NCBI RefSeq assembly: GCF_009908315.1
Contig: NZ_JAAATW010000002.1
Location: 1 to 64,000 of the forward strand
Length of the DNA stretch: 64,000 nucleotides
Direction: 5' to 3'
Source: Paragemmobacter ruber
GTDB taxonomy: Bacteria; Pseudomonadota; Alphaproteobacteria; Rhodobacterales; Rhodobacteraceae
Shown here: piece by piece, positions 2,693-11,135 of the stretch
How the letters are laid out: each line of letters starts with the position of its first letter
Numbering within the stretch: the stretch's first letter is position 1
Program-made: the position numbers and the translations under genes
The notes under the pieces: generated by a model
Databases searched by the model: none
What the model saw: only the letters and a program-made list of their open reading frames with translations
Told to the model about the DNA's origin: nothing

Positions 2693-2802
2693 AAGGAATC
2701 CGGTTTCTTGCCCGGCGGGCGGGAACCGAAATCGGGGATCTTCGGAGCCCTATAACCAACGGGTCGCTTGATGCGGCCCCTAGCTGACGGAAGACAGAGA
2801 GC

Positions 2803-4308: not shown

Positions 4309-5024
4309 TGGGTCAGAAGGTCAACCCCATCGGGATGCGCCTGCAGGTCAACCGGACCTGGGATAGCCGCTGGTTTGCCGAGTCGAAGGATTACGGCAAC
4401 TTGCTGCTGGAAGACCTGCGCATGCGTGAGTTCATCCACGAAGAGTGCAAGCAGGCCGGTGTCAGCCGTGTGATCATCGAGCGTCCGCACAAGAAGTGCC
4501 GTGTGACCATCCACACCGCGCGTCCGGGCGTGATCATCGGCAAGAAGGGCGCGGATATCGAGACGCTTCGCAAGAAGCTGACGGTGTTCACCAAGTCGGA
4601 ACTGCACCTGAACATCGTCGAGGTCCGCAAGCCGGAAGTCGATGCCCAGCTGGTGGCGGAATCGATCGCCCAGCAGATGGAGCGCCGGGTGTCTTTCCGC
4701 CGTGCCATGAAGCGGGGCGTGCAGAACGCCATGCGGATGGGTGCGCTGGGGATCCGGGTCAACGTGTCGGGCCGTCTGGGTGGCGCGGAAATCGCGCGGA
4801 CCGAGTGGTACCGCGAAGGCCGCGTTCCGCTGCACACGCTGCGCGCCGACATCGACTATGCGCTGTCGGAAGCCGAGACGCCCTATGGGATCATCGGTGT
4901 GAAGGTGTGGATCTTCAAGGGCGAGATCCTTGAGCATGATCCGCAGGCCCATGATCGCCGTCAGGCCGAAGCGCAGGACGGTGCTGCACCGCGTGCGCCG
5001 CGCCGCGACCGCGAACGCGCGTAA
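4308..5024 (+). CDS. rpsC: 30S ribosomal protein S3
   Basis: S3 lines the mRNA entry channel and contributes helicase activity. The 238-residue product has an N-terminal region, a KH type-2 RNA-binding domain including the GKKG motif in [19 protein letters not shown], and a C-terminal S3 domain ([20 protein letters not shown]). The basic tail is Ala/Arg rich. The start overlaps the rplV stop by one base. Confidence 0.97.
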
Positions 5025-5038
5025 GGGAGTAGAAGGAA

Positions 5039-5452
5039 ATGCTGCAACCGAAACGGACCAAGTTCCGCAAACAGCACAAGGGCCGTATCCACGGCGAGGC
5101 GAAGGGCGGCTTTCTGCTGAACTTCGGCTCCTTTGCGCTGAAAGCCACCGAGCCCGAGCGTGTGACGGCGCGTCAGATCGAAGCGGCCCGCCGCGCGATC
5201 ACCCGCCACATGAAGCGTCAGGGCCGGGTCTGGATCCGCGTGTTCCCCGATGTGCCGGTGTCGTCGAAGCCGACCGAAGTGCGTATGGGTAAGGGCAAGG
5301 GTTCGGTCGATTACTGGGCGGCGAAGGTGAAGCCGGGCCGCATCATGTTCGAGATCGACGGAGTGTCCGAAGTGATCGCGCGTGAAGCGCTGCGTCTGGG
5401 CGCGATGAAGCTGCCGGTGACGACCCGCGTCGTGGCCCGCGAAGACTGGTAA
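5039..5452 (+). CDS. rplP: 50S ribosomal protein L16
   Basis: L16 organises the A-site tRNA elbow region of the large subunit. The 137-residue product begins [19 protein letters not shown] and contains [20 protein letters not shown] and [18 protein letters not shown], all diagnostic. It is the last gene before a strong terminator-like double hairpin, with rpmC starting only 240 bases later. Confidence 0.97.
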
Positions 5453-5457
5453 GGATC

Positions 5458-5520
5458 GGCGGGGAGAACCCCGCCCGATGCAGGGCCCCTGCCGGAAACG
5501 GCGGGGGCCTTTGCTTTTGT
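5458..5520 (+). terminator. Double hairpin terminator between rplP and rpmC
   Basis: The first hairpin has a 7-bp stem, GGCGGGG / CCCCGCC (5458-5475). The second has an 11-bp stem, GGCCCCTGCCG / CGGCGGGGGCC (5484-5509), with a GAAA loop, followed by TTTGCTTTTG. This is one of the strongest terminator-like signals in the window, although it lies inside the ribosomal cluster. Confidence 0.75.
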
Positions 5521-5548
5521 TGGATATGCTCGGCGATCAAACTAGGGC
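5520..5548 (+). promoter_or_regulatory. Weak candidate promoter upstream of rpmC
   Basis: TTGGAT and TAGGGC are separated by 17 bases, directly after the rplP terminator. It would drive rpmC and the spc genes with a leader of about 140 bases. The match is modest and based on spacing alone. Confidence 0.3.
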
Positions 5549-5692
5549 TTGCTCTTGGGACGGGTCACCTGTAAGTGGGCGCATCCACGGTTCCGGGGCG
5601 ACTCGGAATCGTTGATTCATCATTGATCCACCGGGTTCAGGGTTACCCTTCGTGTAAGGGGCTCTCTGGTGATTGAGAAAAGGACAAAGGCC

Positions 5693-5893
5693 GTGAAAGC
5701 CGAAGAACTGCGGGGCAAGACCCCTGACCAGCTGCGTGACAGCCTGGTCGCGCTGAAGAAGGAAGCCTTCAACCTGCGCTTCCAGCAGGCCACCGGCCAG
5801 CTTGAGAACACCGCCCGGTTCAACGCCATCCGCAAGGATGTGGCGCGCATCAAGACGGTGCTGAACCAAAAAGCCGCTGAAGCCGCGAAGTAA
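5693..5893 (+). CDS. rpmC: 50S ribosomal protein L29 (GTG start)
   Basis: L29 lies near the tunnel exit beside L23. The conserved N-terminus (M)[17 protein letters not shown] begins at the GTG codon 5693-5695, preceded by AAAAGGAC at a good distance. An upstream in-frame start at 5669 would add eight poorly conserved residues, so I choose the GTG. The product has 66 residues, as expected. It starts a group of genes after the terminator-like double hairpin. Confidence 0.93.
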
Positions 5894-5905
5894 GAGGACC
5901 ACGAA

Positions 5906-6139
5906 ATGCCCAAGCGTATCCTGCAAGGTGTCGTGACCTCGGACAAGAACGAGCAGACGATTACCGTTCTGGTAGAGCGCCGCTTCAAGCACCCGCTGCT
6001 GCAAAAGACCGTCCGCAAGTCCAAGAAGTACCGGGCCCACGACGAGCACAACAAGTTCAAGGTCGGTGACACTGTTCGCATCGAAGAGTGCGCGCCGATC
6101 TCGAAAACGAAACGCTGGACGGTGGTTGTCGAGGCGTAA
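5906..6139 (+). CDS. rpsQ: 30S ribosomal protein S17
   Basis: S17 is a primary 16S rRNA binder with an OB fold. The 77-residue product begins [20 protein letters not shown] and contains the typical [20 protein letters not shown]. It is complete and lies 12 bases after rpmC. An imperfect hairpin (GGGACGGT / ACCGTTCCC, 6174-6201) occupies the 81-base gap before rplN. Confidence 0.96.
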
Positions 6140-6220
6140 GCCTCAAACCTCCGTTCGGCACGAACGAAACCCTGGGACGGTTGCAGATCATGACCGTTCC
6201 CAAAGGTCGGGAGTAACCCA

Positions 6221-6589
6221 ATGATCCAGATGCAGACCAATCTGGATGTTGCTGACAACTCCGGCGCGCGCCGGGTTCAGTGCATCAAGGTTCTGGGCGG
6301 TTCGCACCGCCGCTATGCGTCCGTCGGCGACATCATCGTGGTGTCGGTGAAGGAAGCCATTCCGAAGGGCCGCGTGAAGAAGGGCGACGTCCGCAAGGCC
6401 GTTGTCGTGCGCACCGCCAAGGAAGTCCGCCGTGAAGACGGCACGTCGATCCGCTTTGACCGTAATGCCGCCGTCATCCTGAACAACCAGGGCGAACCGG
6501 TCGGCACCCGTATCTTCGGGCCGGTCGTGCGCGAGCTGCGTGCGAAGAACTTCATGAAGATCATCTCGCTGGCACCGGAGGTGCTGTGA
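6221..6589 (+). CDS. rplN: 50S ribosomal protein L14
   Basis: L14 forms inter-subunit bridges and is the anti-association target of RsfS. The 122-residue product ([20 protein letters not shown]) is full length and ends with the conserved [19 protein letters not shown]. Its stop overlaps the rplX start by one base (TGATG). Confidence 0.97.
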
Positions 6590-6894
6590 TGGCTGCGAAG
6601 CTGAAAAAGGGTGATACGGTCATCGTTCTGACCGGCAAGGACAAGGGCAAGAAGGGCGAGATTTCCGCCGTTATGCCCAAGGAAAACAAGGCCATCGTCG
6701 ACGGCGTGAACGTCGCGATCCGGCACACCAAGCAGTCGGCTTCGTCGCAGGGCGGCCGTCTGGCGAAGGCGCTGCCGGTCGATCTGTCGAACCTGGCCAT
6801 CGTTGACAAGAACGGCAAACCCACCCGCGTCGGCTTCCGCATGGAGGGCGACAAGAAGGTGCGTTACGCCAAGTCCACCGGGGATGCGATCTGA
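6589..6894 (+). CDS. rplX: 50S ribosomal protein L24
   Basis: L24 initiates 50S assembly at the 5' end of 23S rRNA. The 101-residue product starts [20 protein letters not shown], a KOW motif. A GTG one codon upstream (6586) is possible, but the ATG that overlaps the rplN stop is preferred. Its own stop overlaps the rplE start by one base (TGATG). Confidence 0.96.
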
Positions 6895-7454
6895 TGCTGG
6901 ACCAAGCCACCTATACCCCCCGCGCCAAGGCCGACTACATCGCCCGCATCCGCGCCGCGATGAAGGAAGAGTTTGGCTACAAGAACGACATGCAGATCCC
7001 CAAGCTCGACAAGATCGTGCTGAACATGGGCGTCGGCGAAGCGGTCAAGGACACCAAGAAGGTGAAGCAGGCCGCCGAGGAACTGTCGCAGATTGCCGGT
7101 CAGAAGGCGGTCATCACCCATGCCAAGAAGTCGATCGCCGGCTTCCGCGTGCGGGAAGAGATGCCGCTGGGCTGCAAGGTGACGCTGCGCGGCGACCGGA
7201 TGTATGAATTCCTTGACCGTCTGATCACGATCGCCCTGCCGCGCGTCCGCGACTTCCGCGGCGTGAAGGGCAACAGCTTTGACGGCCGCGGCAACTATGC
7301 CATGGGCCTGAAAGAGCACATCGTGTTCCCCGAGATCAACTTCGACAAGGTCGATGAGGTTCTGGGGATGGACATCATCATCTGCACCACCGCGAAGACC
7401 GACGCCGAAGCAAAGGCGCTGTTGAAGCACTTCAACATGCCGTTTGCGGCCTAA
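6894..7454 (+). CDS. rplE: 50S ribosomal protein L5
   Basis: L5 binds 5S rRNA and the P-site tRNA elbow. The 186-residue product contains [20 protein letters not shown] and [20 protein letters not shown], both characteristic. The start is coupled to rplX by the TGATG overlap. It is followed 18 bases later by rpsN. Confidence 0.97.
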
Positions 7455-7472
7455 GCGCGAGGAACCTGAGAT

Positions 7473-7778
7473 ATGGCAAAGAAATCCATGGTGAACCGCG
7501 AAGTGAAGCGCGCCAAACTTGTGAAGCAGCACGCTTCCAAGCGCGCGGCACTGAAGGCGGTGATCAACGACCAGTCCAAGCCGATGGAAGAGCGCTTCAA
7601 GGCGACTCTGAAACTGGCCGAACTGCCCCGCAACTCGTCCGCCACCCGGCTGCATAACCGCTGCCAGCTGACGGGCCGTCCCCATGCTTACTACCGTAAG
7701 CTGAAGCTGTCGCGGATCATGCTGCGTGAACTGGCCTCGTTCGGCCAGATCCCGGGCATGGTCAAGTCGAGCTGGTAA
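7473..7778 (+). CDS. rpsN: 30S ribosomal protein S14
   Basis: S14 is a small-subunit head protein. The 101-residue product ([20 protein letters not shown]) is the long form that lacks the zinc-binding CxxC motifs of the short type. It ends [16 protein letters not shown], the conserved C-terminus. It has a good ribosome-binding site (GAGGAA) and is followed 13 bases later by rpsH. Confidence 0.97.
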
Positions 7779-7791
7779 GGGAGGAGCACAG

Positions 7792-8190
7792 ATGTCTATG
7801 AACGATCCTCTCGGCGATATGCTGACCCGCATCCGCAACGCGCAACTGCGCGGCAAATCCACCGTCGCGACGCCGGCTTCCAAGCTGCGCGCCTGGGTTC
7901 TGGATGTGCTGGAATCGGAAGGCTACATCCGCGGCTACGAGAAGAAGACGACCGAGAATGGCCAGGGCGAACTGGTGATCTCGCTCAAGTACTTTGAAGG
8001 CACCCCGGTGATCCGCGAGCTTAAGCGCGTGTCCAAGCCGGGCCGCCGCGTCTATATGGGTGTCAAGGACATCCCGTCGGTGCGCAACGGTCTGGGTGTT
8101 TCCATCGTCTCCACGCCGAAAGGCGTCATGTCCGATGCAGCTGCACGGTCTGCCAATGTTGGCGGCGAAGTGCTCTGCACCGTGTTCTGA
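7792..8190 (+). CDS. rpsH: 30S ribosomal protein S8
   Basis: S8 is a primary 16S rRNA binder and, in E. coli, the spc-operon translational repressor. The 132-residue product begins [20 protein letters not shown]. An in-frame ATG at 7726 overlaps rpsN and is not conserved, so 7792, preceded by GGGAGGAG, is chosen. The C-terminal [20 protein letters not shown] is diagnostic. Confidence 0.97.
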
Positions 8191-8200
8191 GGAGGGTGGC

Positions 8201-8734
8201 ATGTCTCGTATTGGAAAGAAACCGGTCGAACTGCCCAAGGGCGTGTCGGCAAGCATCAGCGGCCAGACCATCGAGGTGAAGGGTCCGAAAGGCACCCGCA
8301 GCTTCACCGCCGGCGACGACGTGACGCTGACCGTCGAGGGGACCACCGTCAAGGTGACCCCGCGCGGCCTGTCGAAGCGCGCGCGCCAGCAGTGGGGGAT
8401 GACCCGGTCGATGGTTGCCAACCTTGTGGTCGGCGTGACCGAGGGCTTCAAGAAGGACCTGGAAATCCAGGGCGTGGGTTACCGCGCCGCGATGGCCGGG
8501 AATGTGCTGAAGCTGTCGCTCGGCTATTCGCATGAGGTGAACTTCGAAGTGCCGAAGGGGGTGACCGTCACCTCGCCGAAGCAGACCGAAATCGTTGTGG
8601 AAGGCATCGACCAGCAGCTTGTCGGACAGGTTGCGGCGAACATCCGCGAGTGGAAGCGCCCCGAGCCCTACAAGGGCAAGGGCATCCGCTACAAGGATGA
8701 GTACATCTTCCGCAAGGAAGGCAAGAAGAAGTAA
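8201..8734 (+). CDS. rplF: 50S ribosomal protein L6
   Basis: L6 sits at the base of the L7/L12 stalk near the factor-binding site. The 177-residue product starts [20 protein letters not shown] and has the family's C-terminal signature [15 protein letters not shown]. Earlier in-frame starts lie inside rpsH and are rejected. GAGGAGGG precedes the ATG. Confidence 0.97.
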
Positions 8735-9985: not shown

Positions 9986-10031
9986 GCGCGCGGCGGGGTG
10001 ACCCCGCCTTGCGCCTGACCGTGATAGAACG

Positions 10032-10062
10032 CGCCCCGGGGAAACCCGGGGCGTTTTGCGTT
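10032..10062 (+). terminator. Rho-independent terminator after rpmD
   Basis: A 9-bp stem, CGCCCCGGG / CCCGGGGCG, with a GAAA loop is followed by TTTTGCGTT. It separates the spc genes from the downstream ectC-like gene. Confidence 0.75.
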
Positions 10063-10129
10063 CCTGCGGGCCGGTTGCGGTGGTGGGCGAAAGGCGGCAG
10101 GCTGGGCGGGTGCGGAAAAGGGGAAATCC

Positions 10130-10513
10130 ATGATCGTCAGAACGCTTGCCTCTGTCATCGACACGCCGGCCCATGTGAAGGGCGCGGCTTTCGAGAGCCG
10201 CCGCATCCTGCTGGCCGCCGATGGGTTGGGCTATTCTCTGCATGACACGCTGTGCAAGGGCGGGACGGAGCAGCGGCTGGAATACCGCAACCATATCGAG
10301 ACGAACTATGTGATCGAAGGCATGGGCGAGGTGGAGAACATCGCCACGGGCGAGGTCTGGCCCTTGGGGCCGGGGACCGTCTATGTGCTGGACCGGCACG
10401 AGGCGCATCTGTTGCGGGCGGAGACGGATCTGCGGATCATCTGCGTCTTTACCCCTGCGCTGACCGGGCAGGAAAAGCATGACGCGGATGGAAGCTATCC
10501 CGCGGCGGGCTAG
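10130..10513 (+). CDS. ectC: Ectoine synthase-like cupin protein (orphan EctC) inside the spc operon
   Basis: EctC cyclises N-gamma-acetyl-diaminobutyrate to the compatible solute ectoine. The 127-residue product matches the family in length and along its whole sequence: SRRILLAADGLGYSLHDT, RLEYRNHIETNYVIEG, GTVYVLDRHEAHLLRAETD and the HDADGSYP tail. The metal ligands known in EctC fall at exactly the canonical numbers E57, Y85 and H93, and the substrate-contact positions S23, R25, T40, C105, F107 and H117 also fit. Position 21, usually Trp, is Phe. No ectA, ectB or ectD is in the window. It lies between rpmD and rplO, preceded by a terminator and followed by a candidate promoter. It may use or hydrolyse an imported or related substrate; ectoine synthesis itself is unproven. 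Confidence 0.88.
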   Translation: MIVRTLASVIDTPAHVKGAAFESRRILLAADGLGYSLHDTLCKGGTEQRLEYRNHIETNYVIEGMGEVENIATGEVWPLGPGTVYVLDRHEAHLLRAETDLRIICVFTPALTGQEKHDADGSYPAAG

Positions 10514-10530
10514 GGCGCGGGCCGCGATGC

Positions 10531-10559
10531 TTGCCAACGGGGGGGATGTGGGATAAGGC
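10531..10559 (+). promoter_or_regulatory. Candidate sigma-70-type promoter upstream of rplO
   Basis: TTGCCA and TAAGGC are separated by 17 bases, just after the ectC stop. It would restart transcription of rplO-secY-adk with a leader of about 90 bases. Assigned by pattern only. Confidence 0.35.
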
Positions 10560-10655
10560 CACGCGGTGCTTCTTCGGGGCACAGAATCAACAAGAAATGC
10601 CGTGTTGCCCTTCATCCGTCGCAGGTATGGGTATTCCGGCCAAGGAGTATGCGAC

Positions 10656-11135
10656 ATGAAACTGAATGAACTGCGCGATAATGACGGCGCCGCCCGCAAG
10701 CAGAAGCGTGTGGCGCGTGGCCCGGGTTCGGGCAAGGGCAAGACCGCCGGGCGCGGGATCAAGGGCCAGAAGTCCCGTTCGGGCGTGGCGCTTGGCGGGT
10801 ATGAGGGCGGCCAGATGCCGCTGTACCGCCGCCTGCCGAAGCGCGGCTTCAACAAGCCGAACCGTCTGGAATTCGCGGTGGTGAACCTTGGCCTGATCGA
10901 GAAGTTCATCGGTCTGGGCAAGCTGGACATCAAGGGCGAGATCACCGAGGACGCGCTGGTTGCGGCGGGCCTGACGTCGAACAAGCGTGACGGGATCCGC
11001 ATCCTGGGCAAGGGCGAGATCAAGTCGAAGGTCAAGCTGGTGGTCACCGGCGCGTCTGCCTCGGCCATCGAGGCCATCGAAAAGGCCGGTGGTTCGATCA
11101 CCGTGAAGGCATCGGCGGCGGCTGCGGCTGAATAA
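10656..11135 (+). CDS. rplO: 50S ribosomal protein L15
   Basis: L15 is a late-assembly large-subunit protein. The 159-residue product begins [20 protein letters not shown] and has the Gly-rich RNA-binding segment [26 protein letters not shown] at 10642-10647 places the start at 10656; an in-frame ATG at 10566 adds 30 unconserved residues. It ends with an Ala-rich tail. It is separated from rpmD by the inserted ectC gene. Confidence 0.97.

Follow-up and report, generated by a model that had tools for sequence, protein, structure and literature searches.

An orphan EctC-like gene between rpmD and rplO in Paragemmobacter ruber and related Rhodobacteraceae

Orphan ectoine synthases and the gene next to rplO

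Substrate binding by ectoine synthase (EctC) is described in passages of PMC6344544, where six contacts to N-gamma-acetyl-diaminobutyrate (ADABA) are named: W21, R25, N38, T40, Y52 and E57. According to the same passages Trp21 is conserved in 437 EctCs from ect clusters and in 145 orphan EctCs, being shifted by two positions in some of the orphans, and the W21A variant of the P. lautus enzyme retains 9.7% activity. According to passages of both PMC5924519 and PMC6344544, the role played by orphan EctCs is not settled. An ectC within a ribosomal operon was not found in titles and abstract openings of the papers searched on orphan or solitary ectC and on Rhodobacter spc, rpmD or rplO, and the string "ribosom" is absent from the main texts of PMC5924519 and PMC6344544. 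PMC7174638 gave no lead; its passages deal with a canonical ect cluster.

The window, a stretch of 64,000 nucleotides of Paragemmobacter ruber, contains an intact ORF of 127 aa (10130–10513, +), which starts with ATG and is preceded by GGGG at 10120–10123. It is located between the ORF of rpmD (L30; 9791–9985, +), which also served as query for rpmD in relatives, and the ORF of rplO (L15; 10656–11135, +). Along its full length the product matches the EctC families PF06339 (E 6.4e-50, 169.1 bits at a Pfam cut-off of 27) and NF009806 (169.1 bits at an NCBIfam cut-off of 128), and a sequence search of the PDB returned four matches, all of them L-ectoine synthases. The predicted structure, built on 29 sequences, reaches a mean pLDDT of 86.4, although the C-terminal end is weak with the last 17 residues poorly predicted and blocks from residue 111 on at 53. 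Comparing this model with the PDB by Foldseek gave ectoine synthases as the best eight matches and a far weaker next one, which points to the cupin fold of ectoine synthases. A preliminary description of this DNA had reported an orphan EctC-like gene of 127 residues between rpmD and rplO, and this assignment is confirmed.

As that description had proposed, the whole genome, rated 100% complete, was searched with profiles for further ect genes. It holds a single EctC copy and gave no match to EctA. Seven hits to the EctB model all remained below the cut-off, and such hits were found in all 14 control genomes as well. No EctB gene is present among the neighbours of ectC in the window. The gene is encoded neither with nor beside ectA and ectB and is an orphan ectC, located outside an ect cluster in a genome where ectAB were not found by these searches. 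The lack of ectA and ectB, noted before for the window only, extends at these cut-offs to the genome.

Of the 19 genomes of the genus, 4 encode EctC, each of them within the rpmD–rplO gap. Among 295 genomes drawn from the family, 92 had an EctC match. We opened 30 of these places as loci with 1.5 kb flanks and 20 as stretches in addition to the window; about 45 were left out, about 43 of which score 182–194 bits like canonical EctCs and two of which are below the cut-off. The gene was seen in the rpmD–rplO gap in five genera (G000, G036, G073, G135 and G178). A scan of named genomes yielded 36 EctC loci, several of them duplicates of genomes found under other locus ids (e.g. L066 and L045): 24 lie between rpmD and rplO, three adjoin rplO only, two adjoin rpmD at a contig end and seven are located elsewhere. 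Named carriers include Tabrizicola oligotrophica, Pseudotabrizicola formosa, Gemmobacter aestuarii, Pseudohalocynthiibacter aestuariivivens and Falsiruegeria mediterranea. At a Roseovarius locus (L078) two EctC genes are found within the gap. The carriers share ancestry and the counts are accordingly not independent of each other.

The rpmD–rplO gap and a leader RNA of rplO

We determined the size of the gap across the family, a comparison also suggested by the preliminary description. Searching 295 genomes for each gene, 93 passed the cut-offs for both rpmD and rplO. In 78 of these the two genes lie in order on one strand, in one (G243) they are in the wrong order and 158 kb apart, and in 14 they are on different contigs or strands, possibly due to contig breaks. 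Two family genomes have rpmD and rplO apart on one contig. The gap measures at least 600 bp in 51 of the 78 genomes, its median is 1000 bp over 79 values with G243 included, and a wide gap is the usual situation. In the 15 genus members that lack ectC the gap spans 171–943 bp, and varied ORFs are found in 20 gaps of other genera measuring at least 650 bp (L118–L137). The rpmD–rplO joint is a family-wide opening of the ribosomal gene cluster which harbors varied ORFs. The proposal that an spc operon which would otherwise be intact is interrupted by ectC was rejected, since the gap is wide in most of the measured family members. By eye GFA-like and DUF1127-like proteins seem to be recurrent in the gaps; one example of each, in the carriers L045 and L046, was confirmed by Pfam.

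A terminator had previously been described before ectC and a promoter after it. Both sequences are indeed present: a terminator-like hairpin with TTTT (10031–10054, +), which probably forms the end of the rpmD unit, and a promoter-like TTGCCA-17-TAAGGC (10531–10559, +) of the rplO unit. However, the scan that detected the hairpin found 2 sites in comparison to 1.2 in shuffles, a count not above chance by itself, and the promoter was read by eye and is absent from the list of the consensus scan. A similar TTGCC..TATACG is seen by eye in several genus members. In most of the 19 members of the genus, with and without ectC, a hairpin following rpmD can be recognized by eye, and a strict script detected one in 9 of 20 gaps of other genera. 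Because the gap is wide in most genomes measured, and because a leader RNA of rplO and, by eye, the hairpin occur also in genus members without ectC, the rpmD unit most likely terminates at the hairpin and the rplO unit most likely starts from the promoter, ectC being located between them. The earlier suggestions that ectC forms a self-contained cassette and that its place ties its expression to growth find no support. The gene would rather be one of the passengers in a pocket that separates two transcription units. A weak possible promoter of ectC itself (TTGCGG-17-CAGGCT, 10075–10103, +) was likewise recognized by eye and is absent from the consensus scan list; ectC might be transcribed from such a weak promoter or else through read-through.

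The leader RNA (10595–10658, +), identified by covariation and model search, comprises the 62 nt before rplO and contains two helices. Besides the window, it was noted at the loci L098–L116, L118–L137 and L179–L183. Helix 1 (4 bp) is nearly invariant with 100% of cells paired; helix 2 (6 bp) is paired in 92.3% and shows changes on both sides in 6 of 6 pairs. Both helices together have 51 cells changed on both sides in comparison to 14.3 in shuffles (0 of 500 as high), while extra pair types alone are unremarkable (51 of 500 shuffles). A segment of the loop can also pair with the nucleotides immediately ahead of the start codon. Of 184 possible pairs 149 are present, in 23 distinct combinations, which is reached by 1 of 20000 shuffles; the corresponding figure for an earlier, smaller set was 16 of 10000. 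None of these shuffles corrects for relatedness, and the sequences used are also those from which the structure was chosen.

The leader is present in all 19 genus members irrespective of ectC, and in the 20 gaps of other genera the pattern fits 19 and the loop fits 20. When 385 Alphaproteobacteria were searched with the leader model, all five family members were recovered, each with the hit directly before rplO and four of them not contained in the model. The remaining six hits stay below 29 bits, and none has a gene of this ribosomal cluster in its vicinity. No family of Rfam 15 matches the leader, and Rfam hits near the gap were weak and below gathering scores. A literature search for L15 leaders listed one paper, PMC7247131, which deals with 20 ribosomal leaders and whose L15 passages concern archaeal eL15 only. 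The element may represent a feedback leader for L15. A known L2-Alphaproteobacteria ribosomal protein leader (RF03142, 53.2 bits) is located at 2734–2800 (+) of the window.

Descent and substrate pocket of the clade

In a tree of 82 EctCs, computed without eight duplicate or short rows (L062, L063, L065, L066, L082, L086, L092 and L097) and from few alignment columns according to a warning of the tool, 37 rows form a branch with an SH-aLRT of 86, apart from the EctB-linked EctCs of the family. Thirty of these rows lie in or beside the rpmD–rplO gap and seven elsewhere (L042, L044, L059, L080, L088, L093 and L094). The tree does not sort the two kinds of location cleanly (5 changes, a number at least as low being found in 39 of 500 shuffles). 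No partner gene shared by the seven was recognizable by eye from protein starts. In two MAGs (L093 and L094, about 4800–8600) the clade ectC lies between genes that, from their protein starts, resemble a methyltetrahydrofolate-corrinoid methyltransferase and a corrinoid activator.

Purifying selection on ectC is indicated by NG86 dN/dS values of 0.07–0.18 in six within-genus pairs, a set that leaves out four pairs with L045. Since the same gene is found in the same gap of other species and is under purifying selection, the ORF is evidently not a chance ORF. Kept by relatives at one and the same site with an altered active site, it looks like a real, selected enzyme. Its GC3 of 0.82 resembles that of its neighbours (0.81–0.91). 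Over 23 carriers the distances of EctC and SecY are correlated with r 0.726 (0 of 9999 permutations as high), in comparison to 0.83 for rplO and secY. A recent foreign insertion was therefore rejected. As its divergence tracks that of the flanking ribosomal proteins, the data fit an ectC that is old at the rpmD–rplO site and was inherited in place. The gene has probably been lost repeatedly, the 15 genus members without it being read as such losses.

In the alignment the metal ligands E57, Y85 and H93 (own numbering) are all present in the EctC of the window, as the preliminary description had stated, and they are kept in 36 of the 37 clade rows, the remaining one having Phe85. At the six ADABA contact positions we read F21, R25, H38, T40, Y52 and E57. 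H38 is also found in 30 of 30 EctB-linked EctCs, so that of the six contacts only position 21 departs from canonical relatives. Both the retention of most substrate contacts and the exchange of Trp21 for Phe had been recognized before. The set of EctB-linked EctCs (n = 30) consists of 29 of the 30 best-scoring family EctCs, which have an adjoining EctB gene, and L095. The latter (4668–6387, from an Ectothiorhodospiraceae MAG) has an EctB gene over the cut-off beside it in a probable ectoine cluster and carries Phe21. Across the clade, position 21 is F in 25 rows, L in 4, Y in 3 and W in 5. Taken by itself, Phe21 argues only weakly for a new function because the EctC of L095 has the same residue beside an EctB gene, and we dropped it as the main argument for a new chemistry.

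Asn occupies position 59 in 37 of 37 rows of the clade, in comparison to Val in 30 of 30 EctB-linked EctCs. One of the two patterns used in the named-genome scan includes Asn59, by which the named clade rows were partly selected for this residue; the 11 members of the clade that were detected with the Pfam model likewise all carry Asn59. In the predicted structure residues 55–63 form a single strand carrying both Glu57 and Asn59, and Asn59 should therefore point in the same direction as Glu57. Asn59, to which the preliminary description did not refer, is a stronger mark than Phe21.

Function and comparison with known systems

With modest confidence we regard the ectC of the window as encoding a functional, metal-dependent cupin of the EctC fold that belongs to an orphan subfamily, is located in a variable pocket between the rpmD and rplO units and acts on a relative of ADABA. 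Such an EctC would close or open a cyclic amidine, its substrate being related to N-gamma-acetyl-diaminobutyrate and not identical with it. With Asn rather than Val next to the metal, a more polar group would fit, and the Trp that is mobile in the known enzyme would give way to a smaller residue at position 21. The preliminary description proposed a role different from standard ectoine synthesis, and this is likely. Phe21 in the EctB-linked L095 and Trp21 in five clade rows count against a new function. Plain ectoine synthesis also stays compatible with the sequence, which shares its core catalytic residues and most of its contacts with true ectoine synthases.

Searching the class with a clade profile matched 37 of 385 genomes and revealed further arrangements. 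Seven loci (L168, L170–L174 and L176) have two EctC units in one ORF, and NCBIfam confirms the two EctC stretches for L170 and L172. Rows of seven or eight EctC units are found in L169 and L168, and two adjacent single EctC genes in L096 and L175, which look like the same region. Asn59 is present in 33 of 33 units read from the double and array loci and four neighbouring loci, a number that includes both L096 and L175 as well as the L168 array, while positions 21, 38 and 40 vary. The genomes with double EctCs were found with the Asn59-clade model, which favours Asn59 proteins; however, it also returned many proteins with Val59 or Cys59. Some of these loci adjoin EamA-type transporter genes, the scores being below curated cut-offs. 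The uniform Asn59 supports a separate class without proving it. We tentatively suggest that the Asn59 EctCs, i.e. the rpmD–rplO clade together with the double EctCs and arrays, might be a distinct class of enzymes making or opening cyclic amidines other than ectoine, in which residues 38 and 40 of the double forms would tune the substrate.

Alternatively, the enzyme might be a scavenging ectoine synthase, the cell taking up N-gamma-ADABA released by other organisms and the enzyme closing it to ectoine, which we consider unlikely. Such scavenging agrees with the retained metal ligands and most of the substrate contacts, and a few carriers could make ADABA themselves: EctA was above the cut-off in 5 of 37 genomes searched (L074 being left out of this set), one of which is the genome of L095 outside the clade. 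The idea is reported for Pseudomonas syringae, the solitary ectC of which complemented an ectC mutant of H. elongata (passages of PMC5924519). However, addition of ADABA yielded no ectoine in P. syringae, data which the same passages call not conclusive. Asn59 throughout the clade and the frequent loss of Trp21 also speak against it, as does the 9.7% activity of the W21A variant in PMC6344544.

An enzyme that mainly opens cyclic amidines, such as ADPC to glutamine or ectoine analogues, in clean-up or salvage is a doubtful reading. According to passages of PMC5924519 the EctC of H. elongata converts glutamine to ADPC in an equilibrium that favours glutamine, and it also hydrolyses analogues of ectoine, but hydrolysis of ectoine itself is called negligible. 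EutD, the known ectoine hydrolase, was above the cut-off in 9 of 51 genomes searched, all nine being carriers, so some carriers meet ectoine. In the Paragemmobacter ruber genome, however, the best EutD-type hit reached 38.7 bits at a cut-off of 613, ectoine use by that route was not seen, and ectoine breakdown as the partner pathway of ectC gave no lead. With EctA and EutD each in a minority of the genomes searched and EutD below the cut-off here, no single ectoine route explains ectC. A functionless relic of a lost ectoine cluster, an option that passages of PMC6344544 name for orphans and that would suit the patchy presence in the genus, is highly improbable in view of the low dN/dS, the metal ligands kept in all but one clade row and the separation of the clade from the EctB-linked EctCs of the family.

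The rpmD–rplO clade offers a testable handle on orphan EctCs, as the gene is intact, selected and stably placed, and occurs in a genome for which no ectoine synthesis was detected. One pocket residue, Asn59, separates the clade from every EctB-linked EctC examined. The same locus also exposes the family-wide opening of the ribosomal cluster and the covarying leader RNA before rplO.

In comparison to canonical EctC (PF06339, NF009806; PDB 5ONM/5ONN/5ONO and 5BXX/5BY5) the window EctC shares the full-length match, the predicted cupin fold, the metal ligands and R25, T40, Y52 and E57; it differs by N59 in place of V59, F21 in place of W21 and the lack of a detected ectA or ectB, and is 36–46% identical to the canonical EctCs of its own family. 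With the orphan EctCs described in passages of PMC5924519 and PMC6344544 it has the location outside an ect cluster in common, whereas by the description in PMC6344544 the 145 orphans have Trp21 where Phe is found here, and the fixed rpmD–rplO place sets the present gene apart. By description the solitary EctC of Pseudomonas syringae (passages of PMC5924519) is similar in being an EctC without ectAB. The double-EctC proteins and arrays of other Alphaproteobacteria (L168–L174 and L176) resemble the window EctC in having Asn59 in every EctC unit examined; unlike it they carry two units per ORF or many in a row, vary at positions 21, 38 and 40 and, as far as seen, are not located in the rpmD–rplO gap.
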